Origin: Pilasporangium apinafurcum
Taxonomy: Eukaryota; Oomycota; Peronosporomycetes; Pythiales; Pythiaceae
NCBI GenBank assembly: GCA_001600495.1
Contig: BCKE01000051.1
Coordinates: forward strand, 169,222-233,221
Length of the DNA: 64,000 bases
Direction of reading: 5' to 3'
In this document: positions 6,954-56,659 of the stretch, in pieces
Numbering within the stretch: position 1 is the first letter of the stretch
How the letters are laid out: each line of letters starts with the position of its first letter
Notes under the pieces: model-generated
The model's input: only the letters and a program-made list of their open reading frames with translations
What the model was told of the DNA's origin: nothing
Database searches by the model: none
Made by a program: the position numbers and the translations under genes

Positions 6954-7015
6954 ATGACTCGGACGCGTCAATAACCATTAGCGCCCTGATTGGACTGGCG
7001 GTGTGTTGACGCGCC
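6954..7015. repeat. Degenerate third copy of the 61-bp module
   Basis: Starts ATGACTC and contains GCGTCA, TGATTG and GTTGACGCGCC in the same order and almost the same spacing as the two better copies downstream. The middle is diverged and the TGAGTCA core is lost. Confidence 0.35.
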
Positions 7016-7860: not shown

Positions 7861-7921
7861 ATGACTCACGGTGCGTCAATTGTATCTGAAAGCTGATTGA
7901 GTCATTTAGGTGTCGACGCAC
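7861..7921. repeat. 61-bp promoter module, copy A
   Basis: Begins ATGACTCACGGTGCGTCA, then has 15 variable bases, then TGATTGAGTCATTTAG followed by GTGTCGACGCAC. It holds two TGASTCA sites and an inverted pair GTGCGTC/GACGCAC that brackets them. The same edges with the same spacing occur at 8543-8603. Confidence 0.6.
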
Positions 7922-8542
7922 CAAGAAACGATTCGTTGTTAAAGAAGTGGCTTCAGTGGAGTTTCCGTGTTTAACTGGTATCTGAAGATAATCCAACCAA
8001 AGCCATTAGAATGGAATTCACTTCCAATCACCTTCCAATAGAAGAATAAAAATCAGAATCACATTGACAGAGACTTTCCTGTTATATTAGCCTCGGTATG
8101 CTCATTCTAAACACTAAACTCCGAGGAACTGGAAATAAAACATGGTTAGAAGCTCATGCACACCTTTCTGTGATGAATGCTCGAACAAAGTGTACTATTG
8201 AAATCCAAAGATGATGCCATTTGATCCTTTTATTGAATTGTCGACAATTTCACTTCAAATGTGCCACCCCAATCAGCCTAGCAACCAAGTTGCAGTAGCA
8301 TGGATCCAATCGGTTGCCCCACAACATAGCAGCAGGAAGAGATGGACTATATCATTCCAACTCCTGGCGCGAAATTCACTTCCACATGAGTTATCCTTTA
8401 TTTCCGTGCCACATTTAACACTCAATCTCATAGGGGTGAATTGAAGCCATGAAATTCTGTAGGAGGTTAGCACTGGAAAATGTGACGAAAAGATTTTGCA
8501 TAACCACCGGCGAAAACCATCTCAGAAGATGGGAGATATTTT

Positions 8543-8603
8543 ATGACTAACTGCGCGTCAGCTCATGCTGCGTTTTGATTGAATCATTCACGTGTCGACG
8601 CAC
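8543..8603. repeat. 61-bp promoter module, copy B
   Basis: Has the same edges as copy A: ATGACTAACTGCGCGTCA, 15 bases unlike those of copy A, then TGATTGAATCATTCAC and GTGTCGACGCAC. The total length is identical (61 bp). The bZIP cores are altered by one base each (TGACTAA, TGAATCA). It ends about 540 bp upstream of the nitrate reductase start. Confidence 0.6.
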
Positions 8604-9140
8604 TACAGTTGGTAATCCACTCTCCGTCCTACAGTAAAGCGTCTGTATATAAAATTACACTCAGGTAATGAAATTCCCGGTGCAAGAGGACAGACTTCAG
8701 AAGAATGGATGATTAGCACCATTCTCCATGATTTGAATCCTAGGTATCTAAAGTATCATAAAAAAGAATGGCTAATTATACCAAACTTTCTTGACCAGCT
8801 GCTACTCTCTTCTCTGCATAACTTCCACAATCAACAAGTCAGTTGAATCATCATGAAACACTCTGTTTCCACGTTTCTGTACCAATCCTTTTGGGGGTCA
8901 GAGGGAGATGCTTCAACTAGCAACTCTATCGTCAGCGTTTATGAGTGTGACACGTTGCACCAGTCACTGCGTCAACGCACCAATGAAGGAAGACAAACAA
9001 CTCTAATCCCACTCACCAAGCTCATAGACGCGCATGAGTTATCTAGAAATTCGCTTACAAGAGTCTCAGTATCCAATCTCTGGGCAACTGCACAAGGCAC
9101 ATCCATTTTACATTATTTCGTATAACTCACACCCGTCAAA

Positions 9141-11720: not shown

Positions 11721-12475
11721 TTCTTTATTTACTTTAAAAGGATATTGTACGTGAAATTTGTTTACTAACAAGCACACTGAGGAAGAGATCTATTATAATT
11801 TACATCATTTACGTGAATGGACGGTGAATTTTGCTACTACAAAAACTCGAGTGTATATTTCTTTCATTTGTAGAGCGAGAGGCACAATGTGGACATCCGA
11901 GGATATTTACTGTATTCATGTGCTGCTTCACCAGAATGGGCACAACCATTTCCTCCCCTTTCTCTCTCCAAGCAATCAACTTTGACAATAGGAGGATGGA
12001 GACTAGAGGATGGACGAGGGAAAGGGAGAGAGCACTTTAGTCCACCAAGAAGAGAGAAGTGAGTGGGCATGGAACGATAAGGCAAGAACAAGGGCTGCAG
12101 CCACATGGGTGATCTGGGCGAAGGGAATAAGTACCCAAAATTACAAGAGTTTTGGATGACTCACCATCTCACTTTGACCGTTTTCTGCAGGAATTCAGGT
12201 GGTGCATCCTACAGCATCAGCAGCCATAGACGTCATTCATTGGTTGTTGCCGACGCGTCATCGCTGAAGTTGTCAGTGCCAATTTTGATCACTCATTTTT
12301 CGCAGACGCTTTTCTTTATGCTTAAAATGGTACGCAAGCAGTAGCGCCAGAAGAAACATGGAGCTCATTTCCTCATCTTCCGCGTACAACAGAAGCACCA
12401 GTGCCAATAGAAGCCAAGGGTTTCTTTTTTCTACTTCGCATATATTCTCCCATATAAATCTTCACCCTTGACACA
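11721..12475. promoter_or_regulatory. Nitrate reductase 3' flank and nitrite reductase promoter
   Basis: A 755 bp gap without a recognisable gene. A TGACTCA site lies at 12157-12163, about 315 bp upstream of the nitrite reductase start. A GACGCGTCA element lies near 12251-12259, related to the GCGTCA edges of the 61-bp module in the reductase promoter. The last 60 bases are pyrimidine-rich. Confidence 0.5.
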
Positions 12476-15400
12476 ATGACTGACGAAATCAAGAAGGAGG
12501 TGGTCGTAGTTATCGGCAACGGTATGGTCGGCCATCGCTTTCTTGACAAAATGAAACGATATGACACCAAGAAACGATACACACTCGTCACGATCGGCGA
12601 AGAACCATTGCAGCACTACAATCGCATGCTGCTGACCGAGTATTTTGAGCACTTGAGCATTGATAAACTGAAGCTGGCGCCACCAGAATGGTACGGCGAG
12701 AACGAAATCGCGCTCAAGCTGCACTCGCAGGTACTTGCGATCGATACCAAGAAGAAACAAGTGCGCTGCCAACGACTAGACGAGATCCCGGCGGGATGCA
12801 ATCAGTTCTTCGAAGTCGAATATGACCACGTCGTCATTGCCACAGGCGCCAGCGCGCTAGTACCACGATTGCCTGGCACAACGCTGCGCGGTGTGTTCGT
12901 CTATCGAACCATCACAGATTTAAATGATATCATCGCATATGGTGAAGCCCAGTACGCCAAAGAAAAGGAAGGTGCACCAAAGAAATGTGCTCTCGTCATC
13001 GGTGGTGGTCTGCTCGGTTTGGAAGCTGCAAAGGCTATCCACGACCTGCACCTGTCGGTGCGCATCATCAATCGCGGCGATCGTCTTATGTCGCGTCAAT
13101 TGGATGATGCTGGCGCCAAACTGTTGCACTCGGAAATTGTGAACAAATTTGGTATCGAAGTGCTTTACCACAAATCAACGAAGAAGGTCTTTAGTGGTGA
13201 AGGTGCAAACTGTGTCGAAGGAGTCGAATTCAGTGATGGCGTTATTTTTGATGATGTCTTCATGATCATCTTTGCAACTGGCATCAAACCGCGTGATGAT
13301 TTGGGAAACACAAGTCAACTTCAGCTCGCGCAGCATGGTGGCTTCGTCGTTAATGATCTTCTTGAAACGAGTGTGGAAAACATTTACGCCATCGGTGAAT
13401 GTGTTTCTCATCGTGATGTCTCGTATGGATTGGTCGCTCCTGGCTACGAAATGGCCGATATTCTTGCCAAAAACTTCAACCGTGAGAGTGAAGATGCAGA
13501 ACGTGTGTTGTTCACGGGCGCGGACAGCTCTACGAAATTGAAGCTGATGGGTATGGAAGTCGCATCGTTCGGAGACTACTTCACGGAAGAGATCAATGAG
13601 CCGTTCGAGGTATTAGTGTACAACAATCCTTTAGAGAAGGTATACAAAAAGCTCATCTTCTCTGCTGACGGAAAGAAACTCTTGGGTGGAATCCTCGTCG
13701 GTGATGCGAGCGATTTCCCTCGTTTGACACTCATGTGTAAAATGAAGGATACCAAGCCGTTGACTGAGCCCCCAAACGAGATTCTTTTGGGAAAACGCGG
13801 TGGTGGTGCTGCCGCCAGCGTTTTGGATATGCCCGATGAAGCGCAAGTCTGCTCTTGTAATAACGTGACCAAAGGAGAAATGTGCCAGGCAATTAAGGAG
13901 CAGAACTTGTGCACAGTCGGCGACTTGAAGAAGGCCTGTAACGTTGGAACTGGATGTGGTGGCTGTTTGCCCCTGGCAAAAGATATCTTGGAAGCTCAAT
14001 TGGCAGCGTCTGGAGCTACTGTCGACAAATCCCTCTGTGAGCATTTCGCATACTCTCGTCAAGAACTTTATCAAATCATTCAAGTCGAGAAATACACAAC
14101 CTTCACGGAGGTTCTCGCCAAACATGGCCGGAACCAGAACAATCCGCACCAGCATGGTTGTGAGATCTGTAAACCGACAATTGCGTCAATTTTTGCAAGT
14201 CTGCAGAATCGACATATCCTAACAGGCGATCGTGCTCCTCTCCAGGACTCGAATGATCGCTTCTTGGCCAACATCCAAAAGTCTGGGCAATTCTCTGTGG
14301 TTCCTCGCATTGCCGGTGGTGAAATAACCCCAGAGAAATTGATTGTGTTGGGTGAAGTCGCCAAAAAGTACAACTTGTACACGAAAATTACTGGTGGTCA
14401 GCGTGTCGATCTCTTTGGTGCTGAAAAATACGACTTGCCTGATATCTGGAAGGAACTCGTGGATGCAGGTTTCGAATCTGGGCATGCCTACGGTAAAGCA
14501 CTCCGTACTGTTAAAAGTTGCGTTGGATCCACTTGGTGCCGATTTGGTGTGCAAGACTCAGTAGGCTTTGCTATTTTCTTGGAAGATCGATACAAGGGTA
14601 TTCGATCGCCGCACAAGATCAAAGGTGGTGTTTCGGGTTGCACACGAGAATGCGCGGAAGCTCGAGGCAAAGATTTCGGGTGTATCGCCACAGAGAAAGG
14701 ATACAACATCTACGTCTGCGGTAATGGTGGCACCAATCCGAAGCATGCGGTACTACTCGCATCAGATGTACCACAAGAGCTTGCCGTTAAGTACTTGGAT
14801 CGCTTCTTGATGTACTATATTCAAACGGCTGATCGTCTTCAACGTACATCCAAGTGGCTTGAATCGCTTGAAGGTGGCATCGATCAGCTTCGACGGGTTG
14901 TGATGGAAGATTCACTGGGTATTTGCGCCAAACTGGAGGAGCAAATGAACTTCCTCGTGGGTACGTACGAGTGTGAATGGAAAAAAGTCGTAGAATCCCC
15001 AGAATTGCGTGCCCAGTTCGCTCAATTCAAGAATACTTCCGCCACGCAACAGGAAACTGTCATGAAGAAAGAGCGCAATCAGCTGTTTCCTGATCTCAGT
15101 CGTAGTGGTAAGCGGGAACTTCGGAAAATTGTATCTCGTAAACCAAGCGATGAAGCACCTTTGTCCCCGCAATCACCTACTTCTGTTATAGCTACGTTGG
15201 CAAACGAAGACGAAGCATCAATGGAGTGGATCCCATTTGGCTCGAAGGATCTGTTCCAGCCCAACAGTGGTGGCGCGGTCTTGTATGGTGATACGCAATT
15301 GGCGATCTTTAACGTGACGGAGATCTGCAACGGCATTGAAAAAGTGACATGGTATGCCACACAAAACATGTCCCCGGATAAAAATTCCTTCGTATTGGCA

Positions 15401-15700
15401 CAAGGTGTAGTCGGTGACCTGCATGGTCGTCCAAAGGTCGCGTGTCCGATGCACAAACGCAATTTCGATCTCGAGACTGGTGCGTGTTTGAGTGGAGAGG
15501 ACTACACAATCGAAACCTTCCAGGTGAAGGAACAAGATGACATCATCTACGTATTGCTGCCTCCTGTAGCTGTTTTAGATGCACGGCTCGGCACGTCACT
15601 CTACGTCAACGGTGAGACTACCTCCTTTGACGACGGCGCCATTGATGCGAGTGCCGCTCCTACTCGTGTCACATGCGGTAACAAGAGTCTGGATTGGTAA
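12476..15700 (+). CDS. NiR: Assimilatory nitrite reductase [NAD(P)H], NirB-NirD type
   Basis: A 1074-residue enzyme reducing nitrite to ammonium, laid out as in fungal NiiA. N-terminal FAD domain with VVVIGNGMVGHRFLDKM; NAD(P)-binding LVIGGGLLGLEAAKAIHDL; BFD-like [2Fe-2S] domain around residues 459-500 (CSCNNV ... GTGCGGC); ferredoxin-like and sirohaem/[4Fe-4S] domains, with cluster and sirohaem cysteines in SCVGSTWC (about residue 681) and GCTRECAEA (about residue 721). The C-terminus is a Rieske-like NirD domain: the CPMHKRNFDLETG pair is present, but the first Cys-x-His pair is replaced by sequence around NMSPDKNSF, so it probably holds no Rieske cluster, as in many NirD proteins. It is a single uninterrupted frame. 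It follows nitrate reductase in the same direction and completes the pathway. Confidence 0.97.
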   Translation: MTDEIKKEVVVVIGNGMVGHRFLDKMKRYDTKKRYTLVTIGEEPLQHYNRMLLTEYFEHLSIDKLKLAPPEWYGENEIALKLHSQVLAIDTKKKQVRCQRLDEIPAGCNQFFEVEYDHVVIATGASALVPRLPGTTLRGVFVYRTITDLNDIIAYGEAQYAKEKEGAPKKCALVIGGGLLGLEAAKAIHDLHLSVRIINRGDRLMSRQLDDAGAKLLHSEIVNKFGIEVLYHKSTKKVFSGEGANCVEGVEFSDGVIFDDVFMIIFATGIKPRDDLGNTSQLQLAQHGGFVVNDLLETSVENIYAIGECVSHRDVSYGLVAPGYEMADILAKNFNRESEDAERVLFTGADSSTKLKLMGMEVASFGDYFTEEINEPFEVLVYNNPLEKVYKKLIFSADGKKLLGGILVGDASDFPRLTLMCKMKDTKPLTEPPNEILLGKRGGGAAASVLDMPDEAQVCSCNNVTKGEMCQAIKEQNLCTVGDLKKACNVGTGCGGCLPLAKDILEAQLAASGATVDKSLCEHFAYSRQELYQIIQVEKYTTFTEVLAKHGRNQNNPHQHGCEICKPTIASIFASLQNRHILTGDRAPLQDSNDRFLANIQKSGQFSVVPRIAGGEITPEKLIVLGEVAKKYNLYTKITGGQRVDLFGAEKYDLPDIWKELVDAGFESGHAYGKALRTVKSCVGSTWCRFGVQDSVGFAIFLEDRYKGIRSPHKIKGGVSGCTRECAEARGKDFGCIATEKGYNIYVCGNGGTNPKHAVLLASDVPQELAVKYLDRFLMYYIQTADRLQRTSKWLESLEGGIDQLRRVVMEDSLGICAKLEEQMNFLVGTYECEWKKVVESPELRAQFAQFKNTSATQQETVMKKERNQLFPDLSRSGKRELRKIVSRKPSDEAPLSPQSPTSVIATLANEDEASMEWIPFGSKDLFQPNSGGAVLYGDTQLAIFNVTEICNGIEKVTWYATQNMSPDKNSFVLAQGVVGDLHGRPKVACPMHKRNFDLETGACLSGEDYTIETFQVKEQDDIIYVLLPPVAVLDARLGTSLYVNGETTSFDDGAIDASAAPTRVTCGNKSLDW

Positions 15701-22925: not shown

Positions 22926-24940
22926 GTGCGTAAATCCATCAAAAATGAAAATCTAACATTGGGATATAATCGGATGGAGTTCGGGAACAGCCCCCCCCTC
23001 CCCGACCCCAACCTACCATACTACAAAATGGTCAAGACCAGCCTTGCCTCTGTTCTCAAGAGTCCGGAGAAGCAGCCGGTGATCAGTCAGGTAGCGGCGA
23101 TGGTCAGCCGCGTCATCATTCAATCGCTCCTGTTCCTCAGGCTGTACTTGATGCACCACAAGGATACACCACCAGTCGTGAATGCCGAGCTGGTGGATAC
23201 GACGTTTAAGGCAGTTTGTCAGTAGAAGGTTATAGGTAGATCGCCTTCGGCCACCGCCAAAACCCTGCGGGACAAATTGACTGGGTTCTACAAACAGCAC
23301 TTCGAGCCCCTGTTGCCAATAGGAGACCAACCGTTGTCCTACACTCACCTCAACACTGTGCTAGACTATGCTTCCGTGCAAGCGGTAACAGTCTTCGAGG
23401 CCAACATCAAGCAGCACTTCGTCGAGTATGTAGTGGCATATGTCAACATGGTGTGGCAGAAGAACTACCTGGTAGAGCGCATCAGGACTACTAGGAGAAC
23501 CAAATGGGAGCGCGAGGCTGCGATCAGGAAGCTGTGTGTCACTCTCCGGCATCTCAAGAACGATCTGTTGAACGTCGGATCAGAGCCCTCTCAGTCGCAT
23601 TCCTTCTACCACTCATGGATGAGGCAGCAGAAGAGCCTAGTGCTACCTGTAAAGACCAGGTATGAGAAGGAACTGCTATATTACGACCTGCAATGCAAGT
23701 CACAGGACTACTGACCCAGAATGCTGAGGATAACCGAGAAGATCGAGCAGTCTGGTAAGAAGGTCCGTAACTTCTGCCCTCTGAGGATCAGCGTTATTCC
23801 AAGGCACATCACACTGGACGCGACCACCCTGGTGCACCTGCTGACCAAAGGAGAGCTGGTGCGTAACAAGGACAAGATATGGAAAACGTTCTTCAGGACC
23901 AACATGAAGGTGTTCAAGGCACGTAACTACTGGTTCAACGACATGATCAGCGCTGATGGGGTCGCTTGCAGCATCCTGTTGATCAGGTGCGATCTGTATG
24001 GTAAGAATATCTCCAAAAAGAAGCTCGTAGTGGCTCGGGAGCGGTACATAGACGACCTGGCAGCAGATGAAGCGCAACAGCTGAGCAAGCGAAGTGTGGT
24101 GGGCATCAACCCCAACATGAGCGACCTGCCGTTCTACGTTGATGAGGATGCCTTTAAGCGGTGCCGTTCTACTCAAAACTAGCGCAGACAGGAGACCAAG
24201 GTCAAGAAGTATGCTCAGATCATCCTGAACGGCAAGAGATACTCTTCGGTCGAGGGTCGCACGATTGTAGAGTGAGAATCGGACCTGTCGATGTATGATC
24301 GCAAGACTGTCGATAACGACAATTTCAAGGCTTTCATCAAGGCTAAGCCGCTGGTGAACAACAAGGTAACTGAGTTCTATGAGAGTAGGCTGTACAACAA
24401 GGTGACTAGGTTCTACGCGGGCGAACTGTATCGCAAGATGCGACTAAACAGCTTTTACAAAATACGCAAGTCCGACAGCGGCTGATGCAACACTTCAAGA
24501 AGATCTTCGGCGCCCCAGACAAGGTAGTGATGGGCATCGGTGACTGGGAGCTGAAGAAGCATCGCAAGTTCAACGAGCCCGCCAAGGGCAAGGGATTCAA
24601 GACTCTGTTGAGGAAAGCCGGCTACTCGGTGTACCTTGTGGACGGGTTCAAGACCAGCTGTCAGTGCTCTCACTGCCAAGCCGAAGGTGCCAAGTGCGAG
24701 AAGTTTCGTATCAGCTTGGGCCCTAACACCAAAAAGACTGACGAAGACAGACAACTCCGACTTGTACACAGTCTATTGCTGTACCAACAGTGTCATAGGC
24801 TGTGGGATCGAGATGTCAACTCTTTAATCAACATAGCTCGCCTCACAAGGCGAGCTCTGGAGAGAAGAGGGAGACCAGAGTATCTGAGTCTCCAGATACG
24901 ACTGCCACCGGCGGATAGTGCTGTTACGTCGACAGCATAG
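22926..24940 (+). pseudogene. Decayed Fanzor1-like RNA-guided nuclease (eukaryotic TnpB relative)
   Basis: One frame can be followed from 22926 to 24485, broken by stops at 23223, 23712, 24180 and 24273, then a one-base shift into the frame 24485-24940. Fanzor features: a basic helical segment with RRTKWEREAAIRKL; FCPLRISVIPRHITLDATTL; the RuvC-I region VVGINPNMSDLPFYVDE; IGDWELKKHRKFNEPAKGKG; LVDGFKTSCQCSHC; and RuvC-III LWDRDVNSLINIARL. Fanzors are RNA-guided DNA nucleases derived from TnpB and carried by eukaryotic transposons. This copy has decayed: Asn (24108-24110) replaces the catalytic Asp expected in the RuvC-I GIDPG-type motif; Gly (24644-24646) stands where an acidic residue is usual in VDEF; and the zinc ribbon lacks one Cys (LYQQCHRLW). 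The N-terminal part (22505-22925) may belong to it but is too decayed to place. It sits between PA2G4 and a chromatin gene. Confidence 0.8.
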
Positions 24941-44377: not shown

Positions 44378-45841
44378 ATGGACCTGGAAGGCGGGCAATC
44401 GACCGCCAAGAAACCTTATACTAGGCGTGCGTGGTCCACATCCAAGCAGCTGCTGGTGGTGATTTTCTTGTTAGGTGTGATTTTCACCATCTCTGACATA
44501 GAGATAACGACGCATCTGCGGTCGGCATTCACGCCTGACGTGACAGGCAGTGATGATAGTGGCTTATCAACTACATTGCCATTGAAGAAGAATGAGAAAC
44601 CATCGAAGCAACCATTGATCACAGGATGGACATCGACGATTGATCCAAACGTGTTCTACCGCATTTCGCAGCAAACATCGATCCAACGTGGTATTGTCGT
44701 GCCGCTTTTCGATGGAATTGGTAAATTAGGTATTGCGCTGCTCATGTCATTGCGTACCATGAATATCGATCTGATGATCGAAGTCCCACATTGCGGCGAT
44801 TTCAGTCCAGAACATCAGAAAATTCTCCGCGAACATGTACAAAATTTCAGGCTCTACGATGTCTGTGCACTAGCCGCCAAGGAAAAAATTGCTCCAGATA
44901 AGGAAGAAAAGGTGTTTTGCAACGACCTCGACGACTGCCACGACAAGTTCCGGTCGTTTTTCCTCAAGATTCTGTCGGTTGTATACTCGGAATTTAAAGA
45001 GCTCATGATCATCGACGCAGACGTGCATTTTTTTCAGAACCCGGCGGGGTTATGGGACACTGACAAGTACCAACAGACCGGCACACTTATGTTCAATGAC
45101 CGAATTGTCTGGGATCGGCTGTACTTGGCAGAACGCAAGCGTGGACGGGAAGATGTTGGCAGCATCCACGACTACCTGGCGCAGTTCGATATCTCTATCT
45201 ATTCTCACTTCCCCACCATCCCACGCAAGGAAAATAAATTACCGAGCGTCTCTCCTATCCCACTCCCATTCCAGCCAAGCGATATTCTCGTCGGTAGTCA
45301 TGCTTGGTCATTAAAAACGGGGCATCTCGTCGATTCCTCGGTGTTGCTTTGGAATAAGGATAAACAGCAACGCGCGACGGCGATCTTGACGTCCATGATC
45401 TCGCAAAATGGCGTTCATCGTCCGTTGTCATATGGCGATAAAGAGTATTTTATGTATGCATTAGAACTCGCTGAAACACAGTACGAGTTCTCAGATTATG
45501 GTTGTGGTGCTGCGGGGGTAGACGTGCAACGCAATGATACAGTACTATGTGGGGATGCGGCTCATTATTGGCCAGTGAAACCGGAGAATGGTGATCCAGA
45601 GTACGAACCGCCGCTGTTGTATATGAACAGCAACAGCATTAACGTCTGGAATCCGGCGACAATGATGTTGTATCACACTAAATCTCGCCCCAGAGAGTTT
45701 TATCCGGGAAAGTTTGAAGACCGTCACTTGGACCAGAGCTGTCCGTTCGACATTACAATCATGCAGATGACTGAACCAGAATTGGCGACGCTGACACAGC
45801 GACAAGCATTCCACAAGTCCATCGGTGGAAAACCTACATAG
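44378..45841 (+). CDS. GT71-type glycosyltransferase, copy 5 (DADVHFF subfamily)
   Basis: 487 residues. Signal anchor LLVVIFLLGVIFTISDIEI at about residues 25-43. Blocks: QRGIVVPLFDGIGKLG, IEVPHCGDF, FRSFFLKILSVVYSEF, IDADVHFFQNP, TGTLMFNDRIVWDRLYLAE, VDSSVLLWNKDKQ, YGDKEYFMYALELAE, CGDAAHYWPVKP, SCPFDI. The motif DADVHFF, FNDRIVWDR and YWPVKP separate it and copy 6 from the other five genes. Different donor or acceptor use is possible but not shown. It ends 107 bp before the left arm of the large palindrome. The frame is intact. Confidence 0.88.
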   Translation: MDLEGGQSTAKKPYTRRAWSTSKQLLVVIFLLGVIFTISDIEITTHLRSAFTPDVTGSDDSGLSTTLPLKKNEKPSKQPLITGWTSTIDPNVFYRISQQTSIQRGIVVPLFDGIGKLGIALLMSLRTMNIDLMIEVPHCGDFSPEHQKILREHVQNFRLYDVCALAAKEKIAPDKEEKVFCNDLDDCHDKFRSFFLKILSVVYSEFKELMIIDADVHFFQNPAGLWDTDKYQQTGTLMFNDRIVWDRLYLAERKRGREDVGSIHDYLAQFDISIYSHFPTIPRKENKLPSVSPIPLPFQPSDILVGSHAWSLKTGHLVDSSVLLWNKDKQQRATAILTSMISQNGVHRPLSYGDKEYFMYALELAETQYEFSDYGCGAAGVDVQRNDTVLCGDAAHYWPVKPENGDPEYEPPLLYMNSNSINVWNPATMMLYHTKSRPREFYPGKFEDRHLDQSCPFDITIMQMTEPELATLTQRQAFHKSIGGKPT

Positions 45842-45947
45842 AGGACCATTAGTACATGAAGGGAAGGATGTCTAGACTCCAGGGGTGTTTAGTTTGTATT
45901 TTTTTTCTTGTTGTAGCTATATCAAGTCCACAACGCGAACCTGAGTG
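45842..45947. other. Short gap to the palindrome
   Basis: 106 bp between the stop of copy 5 and the first palindromic base, with a T-rich stretch near 45898-45906. The palindrome edge has no visible target-site duplication or terminal inverted repeat of a transposon. Confidence 0.5.
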
Positions 45948-47916
45948 GCACAAACCTTAAGCCCTTTCATCAAAATATGTGATACTGTTTGAAGCGATTC
46001 AAATAAAAAGTTATTTATGTTCATTCTCTTTCTACGTGTCTAGCGTGAAATGAATGAAAGCTCGAATTCTACCATCGGTAAGCCACCACATAAATGTGAG
46101 AACAACCGTCAGAGAAAAATCGTCCGCATATTAATCTTTAAACAGTGCGACGAACCAGAGAAAAGAATGAACCAAACAACTTGACACATTCAAAGTTTGT
46201 AAGCTATTGTTTGTTTGTTTGTTTGTTAGTATGTTTATCCTAAATGAATCGATCGTCAATCCTACACATTTCATCAGGGTCGAAGTATGCTACTGACTTC
46301 CTCCTCTTAGCATCTATCTTCATTTCATCCCAGCTACGGCTTAGGCATTCTTAACGAGCTCTTCCGATTTCTCCCACAAGGCTTTGGCGACTTGTTCGTC
46401 CTTCGCCAATGTTGACGGTTCCCACGCCTCCCGGACGCGGATGTACATGCCACTTTGCCAACCATACGGCAATGGCTCCTCCAACGCAATCTGTGCCAAG
46501 TACTTACCCGAATTCTCAGGTGTCTCGGCGTGATTCTTGACTTCCTGTGGAATATTCCCCACAAATACTTGATTCTCACGGAAGAGTTGTGTGCCTGGCA
46601 TCAAACCTGGACTATAAGCGATGGCCTCTGGACCATTCGAGAATCGACGAGCGATCTCTTTTGCGAACAACAAATTGCAGAGTTTGCTGGTGGCATAGGC
46701 ACCTAAGCCGTTGAATGGCTCAAAACCTTTCGCTAATTGATCAAGATCGGACATGACTGGTTCAGGCAAACCGGTCTTCTCAGCTGGGTCATGGGTCTCG
46801 GAACTCAATGTAACAATGCGCTTGGTGTGGTCCAAGAGCATCGTGACAAGCAAGAAATGGCCCAAGTGGTTGGCTTGGAAGGTGCTTTCAAATCCATCTT
46901 CAGTGATGGTTTTGGTGAGCACTTGGATACCAGCGTTGCAAACGATAGAAAAGATTTGGAGGTTACGAGCGAGCAATTCATTCGCAAACTTGCGCACCGA
47001 TGTGAGACTGGTGAGATCGATAATACCAGATTCAATGGTGGTGGATGGGTCTGCTACTGCTTGGACTTGCTGAACAGCGGTATTGACGCGATCTTGGTTG
47101 CGACCAGCGAGGATGAGGTGGATGTTGGGCTGCTTGGCCAGGTAGAGACAACACTGTAGTCCCAGACCGGTATTCCCACCGGTGACAATGATGGTTTTGT
47201 TTTGCGCCATAGTTGGTTGATTTATTTGGTTGATGCGTGTGCTTGAAGGCAAATTGAGGAATGACATGAACACTTGATCGAAATGGTGCGATGTAGCAAA
47301 GAAAGAGCAGTGTCTCTTTATTCGACTAAGTACGAATGTTTAACCATACAGGAGCATAAGCAGAGGTGCTGACCATCACTCCTGGTTTATGCTTTAGCTG
47401 GGATATGCAATATGGTAGAGCGACCACCAATCCGGATATGAGATGGAGTGTCATCAAATGTTTTGATCATCACTCCTCTATTACGCTCCTTTGTGAAGAA
47501 TGCCGCGACAATGGTGCATGCGAGTATGAGCAGAAACTGAGCACGTGGCCATCATTGGCGGTTTTATGATAATGAATTGACAATAAGAAGAGATACAAAG
47601 CATTGATACGAACAAATTAGTGTTCTCTTGTGTAGAAGTTGTATATATGGAGTGTAAAACCTTTGTTCAAGCTTCTTGACAAATAGACCACTTCTTTCAT
47701 TGCAGGGAAAGTTGACGTTGCATTTTTGGTGAATATGGTACTTCAGTAACAGGTATATTTATGGTAAAATTGCTCTAGCAGTAGCGTCCCCAAAAAGTAC
47801 TATAGTGTTAGCAACTAAAGCACGGAACCCTGTCATCATAGGAGACGATCCTCTTCTTGGCATTCTCTGATGTGCAATGTATTAACAGTCCTGGACACCA
47901 TAAAGAGGGGAAAACT
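45948..47916. repeat. Left arm of a 4.33 kb palindrome
   Basis: 1969 bp matching the reverse complement of 48313-50281 without gaps (paired coordinates always sum to 96229). I saw one mismatch, near the outer edge (45955, C versus T). The arm carries one short-chain dehydrogenase gene, a GTTT microsatellite near 46207-46226 and about 700 bp of flanking sequence on the inner side. Confidence 0.95.
46341..47210 (-). CDS. Short-chain dehydrogenase/reductase, copy 1 (palindrome left arm)
   Basis: 289 residues from the ATG at 47210 (MAQNKTIIVTGG). An upstream in-frame ATG at 47267 would add 19 residues (MSFLNLPSSTRINQINQPT), perhaps a short leader. Rossmann motif TGGNTGLG for NAD(P) at residues 10-17, CNAGIQ, TLSSETHDPAEKT with the catalytic Ser, and the catalytic YATSK (Tyr-x-x-x-Lys). 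The set resembles the protochlorophyllide-reductase/retinol-dehydrogenase-like branch of SDRs, used here presumably on a small lipophilic or carbonyl substrate that I cannot name. The protein is identical to the product of 49019-49888. It is transcribed away from the palindrome centre. Frame intact. Confidence 0.88.
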   Translation of the reverse strand: MAQNKTIIVTGGNTGLGLQCCLYLAKQPNIHLILAGRNQDRVNTAVQQVQAVADPSTTIESGIIDLTSLTSVRKFANELLARNLQIFSIVCNAGIQVLTKTITEDGFESTFQANHLGHFLLVTMLLDHTKRIVTLSSETHDPAEKTGLPEPVMSDLDQLAKGFEPFNGLGAYATSKLCNLLFAKEIARRFSNGPEAIAYSPGLMPGTQLFRENQVFVGNIPQEVKNHAETPENSGKYLAQIALEEPLPYGWQSGMYIRVREAWEPSTLAKDEQVAKALWEKSEELVKNA

Positions 47917-48312
47917 GAATCTTGGCGTCATTTTTGCGTCTGATTGACTGAAATAGCTAGTGATTACTAGCAATTTTTCTGCGCTTTCCAGCTTTATCAT
48001 TTTCTCTTTGAATCAACAAGGAATAGCGGGGCTAGAGGAAGAAGACGTGATCGACGGTGCATTCTCCAGATTCACCTAAAGTGAAAGGAAGCCAAGTGAC
48101 GATTGGAGGGAACTACCTAAGAAAAAGCGGAAGACTGTGGATGATGATGATGATGATAGTTCTTCCTTCAGATACAGATGAAGATATATGACTTTTCGGA
48201 TGGATATCTTCCAGTTTCATAAATCCATTCAATTTATGGTAAGTAAGGTATATATGCTTTGCTTGCTTGTCAAGGTTACGAAAATCAATTACAATGTTTA
48301 AAATATACTATA
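47917..48312. other. Unique spacer at the palindrome centre
   Basis: 396 bp not shared by the arms. It contains a GATGAT run (about 48140-48158). One short plus-strand frame reads LPKKKRKTVDDDDDDSS, an NLS-like plus acidic stretch, but stop codons bound it and no gene is supported. Confidence 0.6.
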
Positions 48313-50281
48313 AGTTTTCCCCTCTTTATGGTGTCCAGGACTGTTAATACATTGCACATCAGAGAATGCCAAGAAGAGGATCGTCTCCTATGATGACAGG
48401 GTTCCGTGCTTTAGTTGCTAACACTATAGTACTTTTTGGGGACGCTACTGCTAGAGCAATTTTACCATAAATATACCTGTTACTGAAGTACCATATTCAC
48501 CAAAAATGCAACGTCAACTTTCCCTGCAATGAAAGAAGTGGTCTATTTGTCAAGAAGCTTGAACAAAGGTTTTACACTCCATATATACAACTTCTACACA
48601 AGAGAACACTAATTTGTTCGTATCAATGCTTTGTATCTCTTCTTATTGTCAATTCATTATCATAAAACCGCCAATGATGGCCACGTGCTCAGTTTCTGCT
48701 CATACTCGCATGCACCATTGTCGCGGCATTCTTCACAAAGGAGCGTAATAGAGGAGTGATGATCAAAACATTTGATGACACTCCATCTCATATCCGGATT
48801 GGTGGTCGCTCTACCATATTGCATATCCCAGCTAAAGCATAAACCAGGAGTGATGGTCAGCACCTCTGCTTATGCTCCTGTATGGTTAAACATTCGTACT
48901 TAGTCGAATAAAGAGACACTGCTCTTTCTTTGCTACATCGCACCATTTCGATCAAGTGTTCATGTCATTCCTCAATTTGCCTTCAAGCACACGCATCAAC
49001 CAAATAAATCAACCAACTATGGCGCAAAACAAAACCATCATTGTCACCGGTGGGAATACCGGTCTGGGACTACAGTGTTGTCTCTACCTGGCCAAGCAGC
49101 CCAACATCCACCTCATCCTCGCTGGTCGCAACCAAGATCGCGTCAATACCGCTGTTCAGCAAGTCCAAGCAGTAGCAGACCCATCCACCACCATTGAATC
49201 TGGTATTATCGATCTCACCAGTCTCACATCGGTGCGCAAGTTTGCGAATGAATTGCTCGCTCGTAACCTCCAAATCTTTTCTATCGTTTGCAACGCTGGT
49301 ATCCAAGTGCTCACCAAAACCATCACTGAAGATGGATTTGAAAGCACCTTCCAAGCCAACCACTTGGGCCATTTCTTGCTTGTCACGATGCTCTTGGACC
49401 ACACCAAGCGCATTGTTACATTGAGTTCCGAGACCCATGACCCAGCTGAGAAGACCGGTTTGCCTGAACCAGTCATGTCCGATCTTGATCAATTAGCGAA
49501 AGGTTTTGAGCCATTCAACGGCTTAGGTGCCTATGCCACCAGCAAACTCTGCAATTTGTTGTTCGCAAAAGAGATCGCTCGTCGATTCTCGAATGGTCCA
49601 GAGGCCATCGCTTATAGTCCAGGTTTGATGCCAGGCACACAACTCTTCCGTGAGAATCAAGTATTTGTGGGGAATATTCCACAGGAAGTCAAGAATCACG
49701 CCGAGACACCTGAGAATTCGGGTAAGTACTTGGCACAGATTGCGTTGGAGGAGCCATTGCCGTATGGTTGGCAAAGTGGCATGTACATCCGCGTCCGGGA
49801 GGCGTGGGAACCGTCAACATTGGCGAAGGACGAACAAGTCGCCAAAGCCTTGTGGGAGAAATCGGAAGAGCTCGTTAAGAATGCCTAAGCCGTAGCTGGG
49901 ATGAAATGAAGATAGATGCTAAGAGGAGGAAGTCAGTAGCATACTTCGACCCTGATGAAATGTGTAGGATTGACGATCGATTCATTTAGGATAAACATAC
50001 TAACAAACAAACAAACAAACAATAGCTTACAAACTTTGAATGTGTCAAGTTGTTTGGTTCATTCTTTTCTCTGGTTCGTCGCACTGTTTAAAGATTAATA
50101 TGCGGACGATTTTTCTCTGACGGTTGTTCTCACATTTATGTGGTGGCTTACCGATGGTAGAATTCGAGCTTTCATTCATTTCACGCTAGACACGTAGAAA
50201 GAGAATGAACATAAATAACTTTTTATTTGAATCGCTTCAAACAGTATCACATATTTTGATGAAAGGGCTTAAGATTTGTGC
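48313..50281. repeat. Right arm of a 4.33 kb palindrome
   Basis: 1969 bp, the inverted copy of 45948-47916, practically identical in both coding and non-coding parts. It carries the second short-chain dehydrogenase gene. Confidence 0.95.
49019..49888 (+). CDS. Short-chain dehydrogenase/reductase, copy 2 (palindrome right arm)
   Basis: 289 residues, identical to the protein of 46341-47210, with the same alternative upstream ATG (48962). TGGNTGLG cofactor site, CNAGIQ, catalytic Ser in TLSSETHD and YATSK. The two genes point away from each other, so their promoters lie on the inner side of the palindrome and are also identical. Dosage, not divergence, is the only evident effect of the duplication. 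Confidence 0.88.
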   Translation: MAQNKTIIVTGGNTGLGLQCCLYLAKQPNIHLILAGRNQDRVNTAVQQVQAVADPSTTIESGIIDLTSLTSVRKFANELLARNLQIFSIVCNAGIQVLTKTITEDGFESTFQANHLGHFLLVTMLLDHTKRIVTLSSETHDPAEKTGLPEPVMSDLDQLAKGFEPFNGLGAYATSKLCNLLFAKEIARRFSNGPEAIAYSPGLMPGTQLFRENQVFVGNIPQEVKNHAETPENSGKYLAQIALEEPLPYGWQSGMYIRVREAWEPSTLAKDEQVAKALWEKSEELVKNA

Positions 50282-50727
50282 ACACTACTGATGTGTGCAG
50301 CCTGTCGATAGTCGTTGTAGATTCGTGTGTACTGGAAGTTGTAAAGGATAGTTTGTTGTATCCGCAAGCTCAGGTCGACGCCAATGTCACATAACTCAAC
50401 GAGAAATAACGCACCGAATCCATCGATGCCGCCATGCTATGGCAAAACTATGCCAAGTGGAGTGATAGTTTTGAGTGAGACACGTTACAGACTCGTAGTA
50501 AATTACGCCGACACTTTCACGGCATCATCTTTCACGACATTAAAGTTGCAAGTGAGGATGAAGCTACAACATGAATTTTCAAGTTTCTCGCAATGACCAT
50601 TAGTATTCACAATCGACGAAAAGAATATCTATTTGTATGTACTTTTCTCCTATACGCTATAGCACCTATACAAGCCCCTTTCTTGTCTACCCTCTTTTTA
50701 CTTAATCACGATTACCATGTATCAATG
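50282..50727. other. Gap between palindrome and glycosyltransferase copy 6
   Basis: 446 bp, no gene recognised. It corresponds in position to the 106 bp gap on the left side but I see no similarity, so this segment was either inserted here or lost on the left. Confidence 0.45.
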
Positions 50728-52428
50728 TTATAGTGCTGGCTTCGTGAAGGTGGTCGCATCGGTATGAGTGCTACCAGCCGCAGCCGCAGCCGCAGCCGCA
50801 GCTGCAGCTGCAGCTGCAGCTGCAGCTGCAGCTGCAGCCTTCATGGCATTGTCGACTTCCTTGGCGAATGCCCGCCGCGTCACAAGCGTCTCAATCTCTC
50901 GATCATTGATCTTGTCCAACTCAATATCGAATGGGCAGTTTTGATCCAGTTTCCGCTTCTGAAACGGCCCGGGATAAAACTCGGCTGGCCGTGCTTTCGT
51001 GTGGTAGAGCGTCGGGTTGTCAAGTTTCCAGTCCAAAATACTGTTGCTATTGACGTACAGCAGCTCAGTGTCGGATGCATTGCGTCCATCTGTTGGTTTG
51101 ATCGGCCAGTAGTGTGCAGCTTCACCACACAGCACCGTGTCGTCGCGTTTCTTATTGAAGCCCCAGGCACCACAGCCAAAATCCGAGAACGCATACTTGG
51201 CCTCAGCCATCTCAAGCGCAAACATAAAATACTCCTTATCACCATAAGAAGGAGGTCGATGCACACCATTCTTTGAAATAAACGACGTCAAGATTGCCAG
51301 TGCGCGCTGATGTTTCTTCTTGTGTAGCAGCAGCAAACTGGAATCCACCATGTGACCCGTCCGGAGGTTCCATCCGTGGCTATTGACAATCAATTCGCTC
51401 GGTTGGAAGTCAAAGTCAATCGGCCCAACTTTCTTTTCTCGTGGAGGCTCATTGCGTTCAAGCGTAGGGATGTTTGCATAAACCGAAATGTCAAATTTTG
51501 CCATGAAATCGTGGATTGCACCGACATCTTGCCGTCCTCGGCGACGTTCGGCCAAGAAAATCCGGTCCCAAACAATCCGATCGTTAAAGATGAGCGTGCC
51601 AGTCTCTTTGTACTTGTCTGAGTCCCAAAGCGGCATGGGGTTCTGAAAGAAATGTACGTCCGCGCCATCGAGCACCATCACTTCCTCGTATTGTGAGTAC
51701 ACGACTGACAATAACTTAATATAAAACGACCGAAATTTCTTGTGACAATCTTCTAAATCTTTGCAAAATAAGGGTTTGTCCGTTGTTGGGTCCACAGCTT
51801 CCGCAGCCAATTCGCAGATATCGTAAATTCGCACGTTGCTCACATATTTCGTCAGCAATTCCTGATTCGTCTGGTTGAGATCCCCACAGTGTGAAACCTC
51901 AACAGGCAAATCAACGCCCATGTCGCGCACGTGCATGAGCAAAGAGATCCCCCACTTGGCGATGCCATTAAAAAGAGGCGCAACGATCCCACGTGGGATT
52001 GATGTTTGCTGAGAGATGGCGTGGAGCGAGCTTGTGTCTAGTTCTGATGTCCAGCCCAGTCGACCCTTGGGAAGTTTCTTTTTTAGTTTTGGCTTTTGCT
52101 CAGGCTGCTTTTGCTCCTTTACAGGTGGTTCAGTGGCTTCAATTGGCTTTGGTGATGATGAAGAAATCGCTGGTTGCTGCGCTTGGAACGCTTGGACCGC
52201 CGTAGTAATAGCCGTGTTGTCAGAAGAGGAGGAACCCGTTGTACTAGCAAAATTAAACGACGTGACTTCAAAATCCGAGATCATAAAGAGTACACCAAGG
52301 AACAGTATGCCGAGTAGCCAATGCTGTGGTGTGGTGCACCATGGCGCTCGTCGCGGCGCTGAGAGGCGGGTCGAGGATGAAACAAGTGCTTCACCTTCTT
52401 CCAGGTTTGTCATCCTTTTGTCTGACAT
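50728..52428 (-). CDS. GT71-type glycosyltransferase, copy 6 (DADVHFF subfamily, altered DxD)
   Basis: 566 residues, the longest of the family, on the minus strand. Signal anchor WLLGILFLGVLFMISDF at about residues 36-52, then a long Ser/Pro/Lys stem (PEQKPKLKKKLPKG). Blocks: PRGIVAPLFNGIAKWG, FRSFYIKLLSVVYSQYEEVM, FNDRIVWDRIFLAE, YGDKEYFMFALEMAE, CGEAAHYWPIKP, NCPFDI. Two oddities. The metal motif reads LDGADVHFFQNP: one residue is inserted in what is DADVHFF in copy 5 (codons 51661-51666, residues 255-256). In the PHCGD block it reads VEVSHCGDL, and CGD is CGE before AHYWP. The C-terminus ends in about 21 alanines encoded by a GCAGCN repeat. It may be catalytically changed or inactive. It is closest to copy 5, in opposite orientation on the other side of the palindrome. 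Confidence 0.87.
   Translation of the reverse strand: MSDKRMTNLEEGEALVSSSTRLSAPRRAPWCTTPQHWLLGILFLGVLFMISDFEVTSFNFASTTGSSSSDNTAITTAVQAFQAQQPAISSSSPKPIEATEPPVKEQKQPEQKPKLKKKLPKGRLGWTSELDTSSLHAISQQTSIPRGIVAPLFNGIAKWGISLLMHVRDMGVDLPVEVSHCGDLNQTNQELLTKYVSNVRIYDICELAAEAVDPTTDKPLFCKDLEDCHKKFRSFYIKLLSVVYSQYEEVMVLDGADVHFFQNPMPLWDSDKYKETGTLIFNDRIVWDRIFLAERRRGRQDVGAIHDFMAKFDISVYANIPTLERNEPPREKKVGPIDFDFQPSELIVNSHGWNLRTGHMVDSSLLLLHKKKHQRALAILTSFISKNGVHRPPSYGDKEYFMFALEMAEAKYAFSDFGCGAWGFNKKRDDTVLCGEAAHYWPIKPTDGRNASDTELLYVNSNSILDWKLDNPTLYHTKARPAEFYPGPFQKRKLDQNCPFDIELDKINDREIETLVTRRAFAKEVDNAMKAAAAAAAAAAAAAAAAAAAAAGSTHTDATTFTKPAL
50776..50838 (-). repeat. Trinucleotide repeat encoding a poly-Ala tail
   Basis: 63 bases of (AGC CGC)/(AGC TGC) on the plus strand, giving about 21 consecutive Ala codons (GCT, GCG, GCA) near the C-terminus of glycosyltransferase copy 6. 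Other copies lack this tail. Such repeats change length easily by slippage. Confidence 0.85.
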
Positions 52429-54130
52429 GGTAATTTGGAGCAGAGATGATAGGAGCAGAGCGAAGCGAGAATATGGAAATGAGCTGCTGCTGACCTCTAG
52501 CGATTCTCTTTCGTGGTGGGTTACACCAGCAGTCGGGGCAGTTTTATGTCTATTTTTCGAGGGGTGCCAAATGAATCCAAGTACCGCCTATTGATTGGCT
52601 GAAAATACGTTCGACCAAGTATTGCTTAGTGGCAGCCGTATAAACTAAACACTAAGACAACATAAATGAATCCCAGCTAGCTTCCGTGGATGCATTCTTC
52701 ATTCAATATGCATCGTACATATGTGTGAGAAGACATGTGTTTGTCGTAGAAGGTCTGTATTGATAAACAACATATGCACAAGAACGGCACCAGTGCGCAT
52801 GGCTCAGGTGATCAGTATGCCATCAGTTCGATTAATTCGGTGGCTACATTGCTATGATTGGCTTAAAATGCGTTTACCGGTGCTCGGCAAGCCATTGTCC
52901 ATGCGCGTGTCCAATGAACATGGATCAGCATGCATGGAAACGATAAGCCATAAATACTCTGGAGTGCTATTCTAGTCCGTTTGTTTCGCAAAATAATGCG
53001 TCTCTGGTAACGACATTGACGTGGTCCCCCAACATTTTTCGATTAATTTATTTTGATTTTTTAGCCAATAACTGCAATGTAACTACTCAATTTGCTTCCA
53101 TCGTTAGCCACAAAATTGCGTGCTCTAAAGAATTTCAATTGAACGATGCAACGATCACCACAACATGCTGCGTGTGCAAGAAATCTTTCCTCAATAAAAA
53201 AAGTAAACAAAGAAACTACTATTCTTTGATTAAGTCCGCGGCACCCAAGAGGATCGCAATATTAGGGAAACTATAAATAAGAATGATACTCCCTTTTAAA
53301 CCCGCAATCGTTTGCTTTCTTGGTGTATGGTAAGAGCCATGTTTGTTACAACGGAATCCGATTGCACGATCGTTTTGATAGAAAAAAAAACTCTTCCAAG
53401 TTAGCAATGATGCCAGATTTTTAGACAACCCTGTCTATCAAAGATACATTGCAAGACGATCCAACACCAGATGAAATGGATCCTTAACAAGCATTTTTTT
53501 TCCCTTATAATTGCTTCTTCCGCTTGTCTCATTACTATTCCTGGCGCTCGTCTAGGCAATGAAATCCACAATTAATAATAACTGGATCGCGATGTCATGT
53601 GTTGCAATCATAGCGTGCAGTGGACTCACAATTACTCCAACACAATCGGAAAAGCGCTCATCGACTGCGTTACTGCGTCCGAAACATGTTTGATGAAGCA
53701 TGTGATTCGTCAACCTCAATGACTACAATCATAGCGTAAAATAAAGAAAATTGAATCATCAACAAAACAAACGATCTTTTCAAGATACGCGGGGGTATTC
53801 GCCCACACGGAGTTCATATTCACTGAGATCCTACTGCTAGGAACTTATGATCATCTCCAACTTCGAATTCATGATTAGAGAAAAGGGAGTCGTTTCCGTT
53901 CGATGAGTGATTCTGCCTCGTAATCATCTCAACCTTCGTCAAGAACCAGATACAATCACTTTAGATGCAAGTTCAGATACATCACGCAACTAAGTATTTC
54001 CAGCTCCAATAGACAGTACTCCAATGGCCTGCTACTTAGTTAATCTTACGTTTTTGTCAACACTTCCACCACCAGCAACAACGATAACCGCGACGAAGAA
54101 GGAATCAGGCAAGTCATAAATGCTACCAGA
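52429..54130. other. Intergenic, no gene recognised
   Basis: 1.7 kb between copy 6 (promoter near 52430) and the glycosyltransferase pseudogene. Only short frames. It is AT-rich around 53030-53280. No repeats were recognised. Confidence 0.45.
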
Positions 54131-54783
54131 GAGCAAAGTCAGCCAGACCAGCGTCACTATTGATACCAGAGTATTCATAGATCTGACATTGCAAATTCCC
54201 ATCGCTCGTGGTATCACCCTACAGCTGTTTAATCCAATTGATGCCTTGAGGATTTCGCTGTTGCCGCACTTACGAAATATGGACATGTGACTGTCCGTCG
54301 AGGTTACACACTGCGGTGATTTTCCAAACGCTGAAAGAAGACGCTACTGAAAGAAAGTGGACAATGTGCGGGTCTACAACATTTGTCGAATGGTCATCCA
54401 GACAACAAGAGCATATCATGAAAAAAACTCCACATGGGTCGCTCTTTTGTAACGACCGGCATTATTGTCAGACGCGCCTCCGGTCGTTTTATATTAAAAA
54501 TTTGGTTCGTACAGCGCTTTGTGGCGACCCTGTAATTTCTTCCCATTTGATCCAACATCACAACAGAACTCTAGCAGCACTAACAACAACAACTTCCTCA
54601 AGTGGGCATCTTAGCAAAGCAAACTGGACCAGCTACTAGGCACAGAAGCGCAAAACGTGGGTCTCTACTTCAGTTCGTTTTAGAATCAAAAGTTATTGGA
54701 GATGTACCTTTTTTAAGTTCGCGTCCGCTAAAGGAACTCGCGAGCTTATCGCAACGACAACAGATGCATGCGCGCATGAAATA
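54131..54783 (+). pseudogene. Wrecked GT71-type glycosyltransferase
   Basis: Pieces of the family can be read on the plus strand. FIDLTLQIPIARGITLQLFN and the PLLxxLRNMD segment match the N-terminal catalytic block (around 54170-54285). A stop and a one-base shift follow; VEVTHCGDF then matches the EVPHCGD block and VRVYNIC the VRxYDxC block. The next stretch is full of stops and frameshifts. ALCGDP (about 54520) fits the LCGD block, and KELASLSQRQQMHARMK at the end matches the C-terminal PELATLTQRQAFHKS of copy 5. The segment with the DxD catalytic motif is deleted. It is most like the DADVHFF subfamily. Confidence 0.7.
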
Positions 54784-55183
54784 AAAAATATACACATAAA
54801 AAAAACGGCGTCTAATGCCTGAAAATGTGGCGTCGATGGACAGGACTAATCGATAGTGAAAAGCATCGAGAGCAATCATATTCGTGCGGCGCTGGTAAAC
54901 CAACTTCGCTCCTTGAAACAAGATATCGTTTGGAATGGGTGCAACATGGAGACAATCACCTGTTTTTGGCAATCGAATGTACCCTATCGTACAATTGTCA
55001 CTTTATAAAGGAAGATATTTAAACAAGATGCCTATTTCATCCTCTTACTTCTTATTTTCAACTTTTGTATACTTTATCAAAACGTATATACATTGTTTGA
55101 TCCTCTGTGCACCGTCAGGACCTAAGAAGTCAATCAGCCCCAAGAGCTCAAGCGTTATCACTTCGCCCTCCTCTGTGCTCTGC
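54784..55183. other. Gap before glycosyltransferase copy 7
   Basis: 400 bp between the pseudogene and copy 7. An open frame runs through it into copy 7, but its residues are unlike the family and the sequence is presumably promoter and 5' UTR. No other feature seen. Confidence 0.4.
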
Positions 55184-56659
55184 ATGAAGCGTCGATCGAA
55201 TTCAGTCGATTCTGCCGACCATCTACCTACTCTCACGGGCTTTCACGACCGGAGGAACAGGTCTTCTCCACCCTCCCGTGTCCAGAAATGTTCATCATGG
55301 GTGTGGTTATTGGTATTTCTGGTGCTTGCCTTCGCCGGCACGCATTACATGATCGTCACGAGACATTTATCATGGTCAGACTTCACAATCGGCACTGGCA
55401 ACCGTCAATCTCATTTTGCACCGGAAAGCGATGAAGCACGTGTGGAGAAGATGCATCTCATTAACGCATTGACGCATCTGACACAGCAGACACCGATCCC
55501 ACGTGGCATCGTCCTGCCACTCTTCGACAGCATCGCGCAGTTAGGGATCTCGCTCATCTTGGAGCTTCGTACGATGGGTATCGATCTACCGGTCGAAGTG
55601 CCGCATTGCGGAGATTTCCACGACAAATGGACCGAGATTTTACTGGACAAAGATCCACTCGTGCGCACGTACGACGTCTGTAAGCTCGCGATGGAGGCAC
55701 GTACGCTACAGAAGAAACGCATCTGGTGCAACAACCTCAAGCATTGCCAGCAGCGGTTCCGGAGTTTCGAGATCAAGGTACTGGCTGTTGCGTACTCACA
55801 GTTTCAGGAGCTCATGCTGCTTGATGCGGACACGGTTTTCTTCCAGGACCCGATGCAGCTGTTTGAGCTTGAAAAATATCAATTGACTGGCACATTGTTC
55901 TTCCACGATCGGATTAGCTGCCCAAAAGAGTTCCTCAGTGAACGATTGAAAGAGAATCCGAAATTTAGTCGTTTTCATCAATACATGTCACGGTTCGATG
56001 TGTCACCCTACCAATCGCTGCCGACGATCCCACGTCCATTACCCACGAAATCCAACCCTGTTCCATTACCATTGCAGTTCCAGCCGAGTGATTTCCTGTT
56101 ATCCAGTCACTCGTGGAATTTGCGTGCAGGCCATCAAATGGACTCGTCACTGGTGCTCTGGAATAAGGCCAAGCAGCCGCGTGCAACAGTGCTGTTGGCG
56201 TCGTTTATGACGATGAATGGCCCCGAACGACCGCCTTCCTACGGCGACAAGGAGTTTTTCTTCATTGCCTGTGAACTTGCCGAGACAAAATATGCGTTTT
56301 CAGACTTTGGTGTCGGTAGTGTGGGCTCTAATCTGCAAGACCAGGGTACGGTGCTCTGTGGGGACGCTGCGCACTTTTTTCCCGTGCATGCCGGTGCAAC
56401 GAAACACGCCCCGCTGCTCTATCTTAACAGCGACCACATTCTGGACTGGAAGCCCCACAAACAAACTGTCCATCGCACGCGAGCACGGCCGGCAGCGTAC
56501 TATGCTGGTTCGTTTGAGGATCGGAATTTACCACAAGAATGTCCATTTGGGATTTCCGCCACCCCACTCACACAGGACGAGATCAGTAAGATGCTGCAAC
56601 GGCAACGACTTGATCGCGTCGTGCGCGGGTGGAAACATGACAAAAAGATCAGTACGTAG
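55184..56659 (+). CDS. GT71-type glycosyltransferase, copy 7
   Basis: 491 residues from the ATG at 55184 (MKRRSNSVDSADHLP). The frame is open further upstream to 54935, but this start puts the signal anchor (WVWLLVFLVLAFAGTHYMIV) at about residues 39-58, as in the siblings. Blocks: PRGIVLPLFDSIAQLG, VEVPHCGDF, HCQQRFRSFEIKVLAVAY, LDADTVFFQDP, TGTLFFHDRISCPKEFLS, MDSSLVLWNKAKQ, YGDKEFFFIACELAE, CGDAAHFFP, ECPFGI. It is closest to copy 4, although the DADVHFF members, the pseudogene and the palindrome now lie between them. The frame is intact. Confidence 0.86.
   Translation: MKRRSNSVDSADHLPTLTGFHDRRNRSSPPSRVQKCSSWVWLLVFLVLAFAGTHYMIVTRHLSWSDFTIGTGNRQSHFAPESDEARVEKMHLINALTHLTQQTPIPRGIVLPLFDSIAQLGISLILELRTMGIDLPVEVPHCGDFHDKWTEILLDKDPLVRTYDVCKLAMEARTLQKKRIWCNNLKHCQQRFRSFEIKVLAVAYSQFQELMLLDADTVFFQDPMQLFELEKYQLTGTLFFHDRISCPKEFLSERLKENPKFSRFHQYMSRFDVSPYQSLPTIPRPLPTKSNPVPLPLQFQPSDFLLSSHSWNLRAGHQMDSSLVLWNKAKQPRATVLLASFMTMNGPERPPSYGDKEFFFIACELAETKYAFSDFGVGSVGSNLQDQGTVLCGDAAHFFPVHAGATKHAPLLYLNSDHILDWKPHKQTVHRTRARPAAYYAGSFEDRNLPQECPFGISATPLTQDEISKMLQRQRLDRVVRGWKHDKKIST

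Follow-up and report, generated by a model that had tools for sequence, protein, structure and literature searches.

A near-perfect palindrome with two identical short-chain dehydrogenase/reductase genes inside a mannosyltransferase-like gene cluster of Pilasporangium apinafurcum

The DNA analysed here is a stretch of 64,000 nucleotides, the window, from the oomycete Pilasporangium apinafurcum (GenBank assembly GCA_001600495.1, contig BCKE01000051.1), and our subject is a pair of long inverted arms within it, each carrying one intact gene of the short-chain dehydrogenase/reductase (SDR) family. The original prediction, made from the sequence by eye, had described a near-perfect palindrome at 45948-50281 with arms of 1969 nt, a single differing base at the outer edge, a unique spacer of 396 bp and two identical dehydrogenase genes. 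All of this held up when the arms were traced with a repeat search of the window, a BLASTN comparison of the window with itself and a base-by-base comparison; the only amendment is a 1-base gap lying just outside the predicted edge. The parts of the palindrome are:

45948..47916, plus strand: left arm (repeat search, BLASTN and base comparison; similarity continues to 45944 with one gap)
47917..48312, no strand: unique spacer, 396 bp, 37% G+C
48313..50281, minus strand: right arm (repeat search, BLASTN and base comparison; similarity continues to 50286)
46341..47210, minus strand: SDR gene copy 1, an open frame of 289 aa with its ATG at 47210, assigned by PF00106 and motifs
49019..49888, plus strand: SDR gene copy 2, 289 aa with its ATG at 49019, protein and DNA identical to copy 1

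The two arms agree at 1968 of 1969 bases, a likeness beyond chance. The sole mismatch, C at 45955 against T (complementary strand) at 50274, lies 8 bases from the outer edge, and inward of it all 1961 of 1961 bases match; the upper limit on arm divergence is 0.0015. The identity covers non-coding DNA as well as genes, 1099 of the 1969 bp of an arm being non-coding. In the self-comparison the match reaches 45944-47916 and 48313-50286 with one mismatch and one gap, the gap standing just beyond the 45948/50281 edge and being followed by four further matching bases. The spacer is not itself palindromic, its score against its own reverse complement being reached by 38% of 300 shuffles, and the window holds no N in its 64,000 bases. 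Outside the arms the likeness stops: the outer flanks, 45842-45947 and 50282-50727, share no mirror homology above that of shuffles (35% of 300 reach the score), and thus the flanks are mutually unrelated and the arm edges abrupt. The sequence extends for more than 13 kb on either side of the palindrome, and both flanks are parts of one cluster of mannosyltransferase-like (MT) genes. A search at the outer borders for direct repeats of 6-12 bp, in which either border could shift by as much as 12 bp, found none; with this target-site duplication missing, a foldback element or a plain transposon insertion was rejected.

Both differences between the arms, the mismatch and the 1-base gap, fall within the outermost 13 bp of 1974. 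Two random changes would gather in this way at one given end with a chance of about 4e-5, in a test chosen after the data had been seen, and for the run of seven matches outside the mismatch base composition gives a chance of about 7e-5 (7 in 100,000 draws). Because of this clustering and this matching run, the edge pattern is probably not the outcome of random mutation. It could be either the microhomology junction of a duplication or an end zone that conversion did not reach, and both readings predict the pattern seen.

Each arm has one SDR gene, intact and transcribed away from the spacer, and the two copies differ at none of their 135 fourfold sites. The hallmarks of the SDR family are the motifs TGxxxGxG, which belongs to the cofactor, NAG, and YxxxK, which belongs to the active site; the predicted protein carries TGGNTGLG at residue 10, NAG at 92 and YATSK at 172, and it matches PF00106 with an E value of 1.4e-18 (67.5 bits against a cut-off of 26.6), so that motifs and profile both place it within the family. 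Eight solved sequences match it with E values of 1e-10 or lower, and seven of them are protochlorophyllide reductases of the light-dependent kind (best E 4.3e-30). That identity was nevertheless not supported, the model TIGR01289 giving 109.8 bits against a cut-off of 331.35; the general oxidoreductase model NF004846 scores higher, at 136.4, yet below its own cut-off of 268. From its sequence, then, the predicted product is an SDR without an assigned substrate. A search for relics of MT or SDR genes between the two SDR genes gave a single match, mirrored in both arms, which at E 0.33 was taken as chance. A pattern scan of genome contigs for a bacterial source of the SDR returned 51 pattern matches and no confirmed relative, a single-protein scan of this kind detecting close relatives only.

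Upstream of the two genes lie matches to the INR+FPR core promoter, suggested to be unique to oomycetes among the species tested in the source (PMC3599244):

47251..47265, minus strand: INR+FPR core promoter match with one mismatch, copy 1, 40 bp upstream of the SDR ATG; a lead only
48964..48978, plus strand: INR+FPR core promoter match, copy 2, 40 bp upstream of the SDR ATG; the same sequence and hence not an independent site

A third such match stands 56 bp upstream of the ATG of one transporter of the MFS family. Across the window the pattern is not above chance: with up to two mismatches it occurs 21 times against 18.2 expected, and 28 of 100 shuffles reach 21; with up to one mismatch there are three matches, amounting to two independent sites, while 20 single-base shuffles gave 0-2 each. 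What speaks for these putative promoters is where they stand, at 40 and 56 bp before an ATG, and we treat them, and the oomycete assignment that they would support, as leads only.

The surrounding cluster comprises seven divergent Mannosyl_trans3-type genes and two relics at 35445-56659, with 41-61% amino acid identity. PF11051 was run on MT4, MT5 and MT6 and matched all three; the remaining genes were assigned by alignment to these, and MT7 was taken as 55175-56659. Judged from its sequences, the cluster looks like a birth-and-death family. Next to the palindrome are:

44378..45841, plus strand: MT5, a Mannosyl_trans3-family gene whose stop is 106 bp from the left arm
50728..52428, minus strand: MT6, a Mannosyl_trans3-family gene with a polyalanine tail, sister of MT5 in mirror orientation
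50296..50535, minus strand: relic 1, the decayed 5' part of an MT3-like gene, with three stops in 80 codons

The tree joins MT5 and MT6 as sisters (100/100 support; 56% amino acid identity), and the two point at the palindrome from both sides, in the order MT5> <SDR SDR> <MT6; MT6 is the only MT gene on the minus strand, the five genes beside this pair all being on the plus strand. At fourfold sites MT5 and MT6 are saturated: 87 of 115 differ, a fraction of 0.757 where shuffling leads one to expect 0.745; the corresponding count for MT2 and MT3 is 83 of 125 (0.664, with 0.740 expected). Divided into fifths from 5' to 3', the nucleotide identity of MT5 and MT6 runs 0.50, 0.59, 0.67, 0.64 and 0.60, with no rise toward the arm, and therefore the MT genes bear no trace of conversion. 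The polyalanine tail of MT6 is encoded, on the minus strand, by a run of GCTGCA/GCCGCA-type units at 50775-50838 that is itself nearly palindromic. The second decayed relic of the cluster, at 54087-54507 on the plus strand, has three stops in the 117 codons of 54087-54437; the tree groups it with MT5 and MT6 (80/100, drawn open, long branch), and the nearest gene by identity is MT7 (40 of 112).

Relic 1 can be recognised to within 14 bp of the right arm by tblastn or 32 bp by profile; the initial tblastn match had carried it 43 bp into the arm (to 50239), a portion with little similarity. It groups with MT3 (99/98) on a long branch, in a placement that the program called unsure, and by identity it is likewise closest to MT3 (34 of 77 residues, against 26 of 77 to MT2 and to MT6). 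Simulated decay of four starting genes produced at least three stops in 0.25-1.5% of 400 runs at 0.05 changes per site, and in 3.5-7.8% at 0.10 changes per site. At the left arm edge, besides the end of MT5 itself, no MT relic matched better than E 0.4. With the end of a broken pseudogene only 14-32 bp away, the right edge looks like a real breakpoint in the sequence.

Elsewhere in the window the genes are long and open with few visible introns. The Pfam domains at 1611-15700 point to a pair of MFS transporters, to a nitrate reductase of the molybdopterin type, with domains for Mo-co, cytochrome b5 and FAD, and to a NIR/SIR nitrite reductase that has a Rieske domain; we take the transporters to be NRT2 and the region to be an apparent nitrate-assimilation cluster. 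This cluster and the long genes poor in introns together suggest an oomycete or one of its near relations. At 23226-24940 on the plus strand, three open pieces follow one another in different frames; the last has a Cas12f1-like TNB zinc-ribbon match just below the cut-off (25.3 against 26.3 bits), and the middle one has no Pfam match. Possibly this is a broken or intron-bearing gene of TnpB/Fanzor-like type.

The original prediction had offered three explanations for the palindrome: a very recent origin, upkeep by gene conversion between the arms, or an artefact of assembly. The evidence leads us to rank them in that order of probability; the two different flanks from the same MT cluster, together with an edge near an old pseudogene, speak for a real structure, while nothing found is decisive between a recent and a maintained one. 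No observation made here bears on the prediction's further remark that large palindromes often start gene amplification. Our preference, held at about even confidence, is for a real, recent event, an inverted duplication confined to the SDR unit. A unit of about 1.97 kb, with one SDR gene flanked by some 0.7 kb upstream and 0.4 kb downstream, would have been copied in inverted orientation 396 bp away within the MT cluster, the far end of the copy landing in or against an MT pseudogene; either arm may be the original. The likely route would be a template switch during replication or break repair, and the short stretch common to the outer edges (7 of 7 bases, bounded inward by the mismatch and outward by the 1-base gap) would fit a microhomology junction. 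The outcome would be the two intact, divergently pointing and identical SDR genes, probably with a doubled SDR dose; once formed, the arms could convert each other and flip the spacer. Three features lie behind our preference for a recent duplication: the arms end abruptly, and the outer flanks show no band of intermediate divergence; relic 1 has no counterpart found on the left and so spoils the mirror; and the right edge is near the point where another gene is broken, as expected of a breakpoint. The position of that break also agrees with the arm itself having been the unit that was duplicated. Recent is placed before maintained since there is zero divergence in 1961 bp. Several observations weigh against this preference. 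A mere recent duplication of the SDR does not explain why well-supported sister genes stand in mirror orientation around the palindrome, and differences confined to the extreme end of the arms are also to be expected where conversion stops short at the ends of repeats. Furthermore, if the arm broke the gene that became relic 1, the age of the palindrome is the age of the relic's decay. The two clocks disagree, MT5 and MT6 being an old mirror pair and the arms being unchanged inside.

The SDR genes may instead be an old inverted pair whose identity is maintained by gene conversion between the arms. The unit would perhaps have been duplicated along with the MT5/MT6 ancestor, and differences would have gone on building up only outside the arms; we regard this explanation as possible but less probable than a recent event. 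It draws on the convergence of the two sisters on the palindrome and on the saturation of their silent sites, on the location of the arm differences, and on precedents in Caenorhabditis (PMC1803023) and Saccharomyces (PMC9731477). Relic 1 would count in its favour too, its decay far exceeding the arm divergence of less than 0.0015, provided that the palindrome broke that gene; in that case the palindrome is as old as the decay and conversion is needed. Should the gene already have been dead when the arm came in, on the other hand, nothing follows for the age of the palindrome. The missing zone of middling divergence and the lack of a rise in MT5/MT6 identity toward the arm speak against conversion, and so does the inexact mirror, a relic of the MT3 line standing between the right arm and MT6 with no left counterpart found; the mirror orientation of MT5 and MT6 could, moreover, have arisen independently. 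In its most specific form, an old SDR pair would be central to an older mirror duplication (MT5-SDR / SDR-MT6) of an oomycete-like nuclear genome, and conversion would hold a sharply bounded core of 1.97 kb identical while the adjoining genes reach silent-site saturation; to this version we give a somewhat smaller chance still.

An artefact of sequencing or assembly, in which one arm is true and the second stems from a palindromic read, from a collapsed repeat placed twice or from two merged haplotypes, seems unlikely to us. A single consensus placed twice would yield perfect identity over 1961 bp, and true differences can be erased by short-read polishing. Palindromic reads are known from missed adaptors and from whole-genome amplification, and the chimaeric reads of the latter also yield false inverted duplications in assemblies (PMC6218980). 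Such amplification chimaeras do not, however, account easily for flanks that differ and for a broken pseudogene close to one edge. A plain fold-back read would be expected to repeat its own flank or to end the contig; the palindrome does neither, and because of its two different flanks and the broken pseudogene a simple fold-back is unlikely. The imperfect homology of the 13-bp edge and the unique spacer, free of N, likewise count against an artefact, and independent long-read assemblies of a homogenised yeast inverted repeat were in agreement (PMC9731477). Finally, read-through from MT5 across the left arm, spacer and right arm could fold into a 1.97-kb duplex feeding RNA silencing of the SDR. 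The geometry would allow it, MT5 pointing into the left arm with its stop 106 bp away, but both SDR genes are open and preceded by a promoter-like match, which points to expression, and we consider a hairpin-RNA locus highly improbable.

What the palindrome means depends on which of these is true. If recent, it would be a fresh change of gene dosage whose junctions are still intact; if maintained, it would carry the concerted evolution of inverted repeats beyond worm and yeast into a further eukaryotic lineage and offer a compact natural test case, with two genes, clean edges and diverged neighbours as an internal clock. Were it an artefact, the second SDR gene would be spurious.

In a literature search, no such palindrome in an oomycete was found among the matches listed, judged by titles and the openings of abstracts. 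Recombination or gene conversion is reported among effector paralogues of the oomycete Phytophthora (PMC3820680); that case rests on breakpoints in gene trees, and in its text the term palindrom does not occur and 'inverted' is used only of leaves. Another Phytophthora paper describes a 4.3-kb inversion upstream of a gene, again with the term palindrom absent. The palindromes of the human Y chromosome resemble ours in having arms more than 99.9% alike (PMC3723533), although they are large and sex-linked and their conversion has been measured in populations, whereas we have one window only. In Saccharomyces, the flip/flop inverted repeat is likewise gene-bearing and nearly identical, and from a microbial eukaryote (Salzberg et al. 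2022, PMC9731477); its 4-kb arms end a 24-kb region, they are homogenised both within strains and within species, and the orientation has been shown to be polymorphic, whereas here the spacer is 396 bp and there is one sequence. In Caenorhabditis, long inverted repeats hold divergent or convergent pairs of paralogues, such as F44E5.4/F44E5.5 and the HSP16 locus (Zhao et al. 2007, PMC1803023). The F44E5.4 repeat, with 2207 bp of arms and a 126-bp spacer, is like ours a near-perfect inverted repeat of divergent identical genes with non-coding DNA included; unlike the palindrome described here from a single genome, the Caenorhabditis repeats are present in several species, which shows their age and points to active maintenance. 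Seen against these systems, the palindrome is at most a further case of the known gene-bearing inverted repeats that are kept alike.

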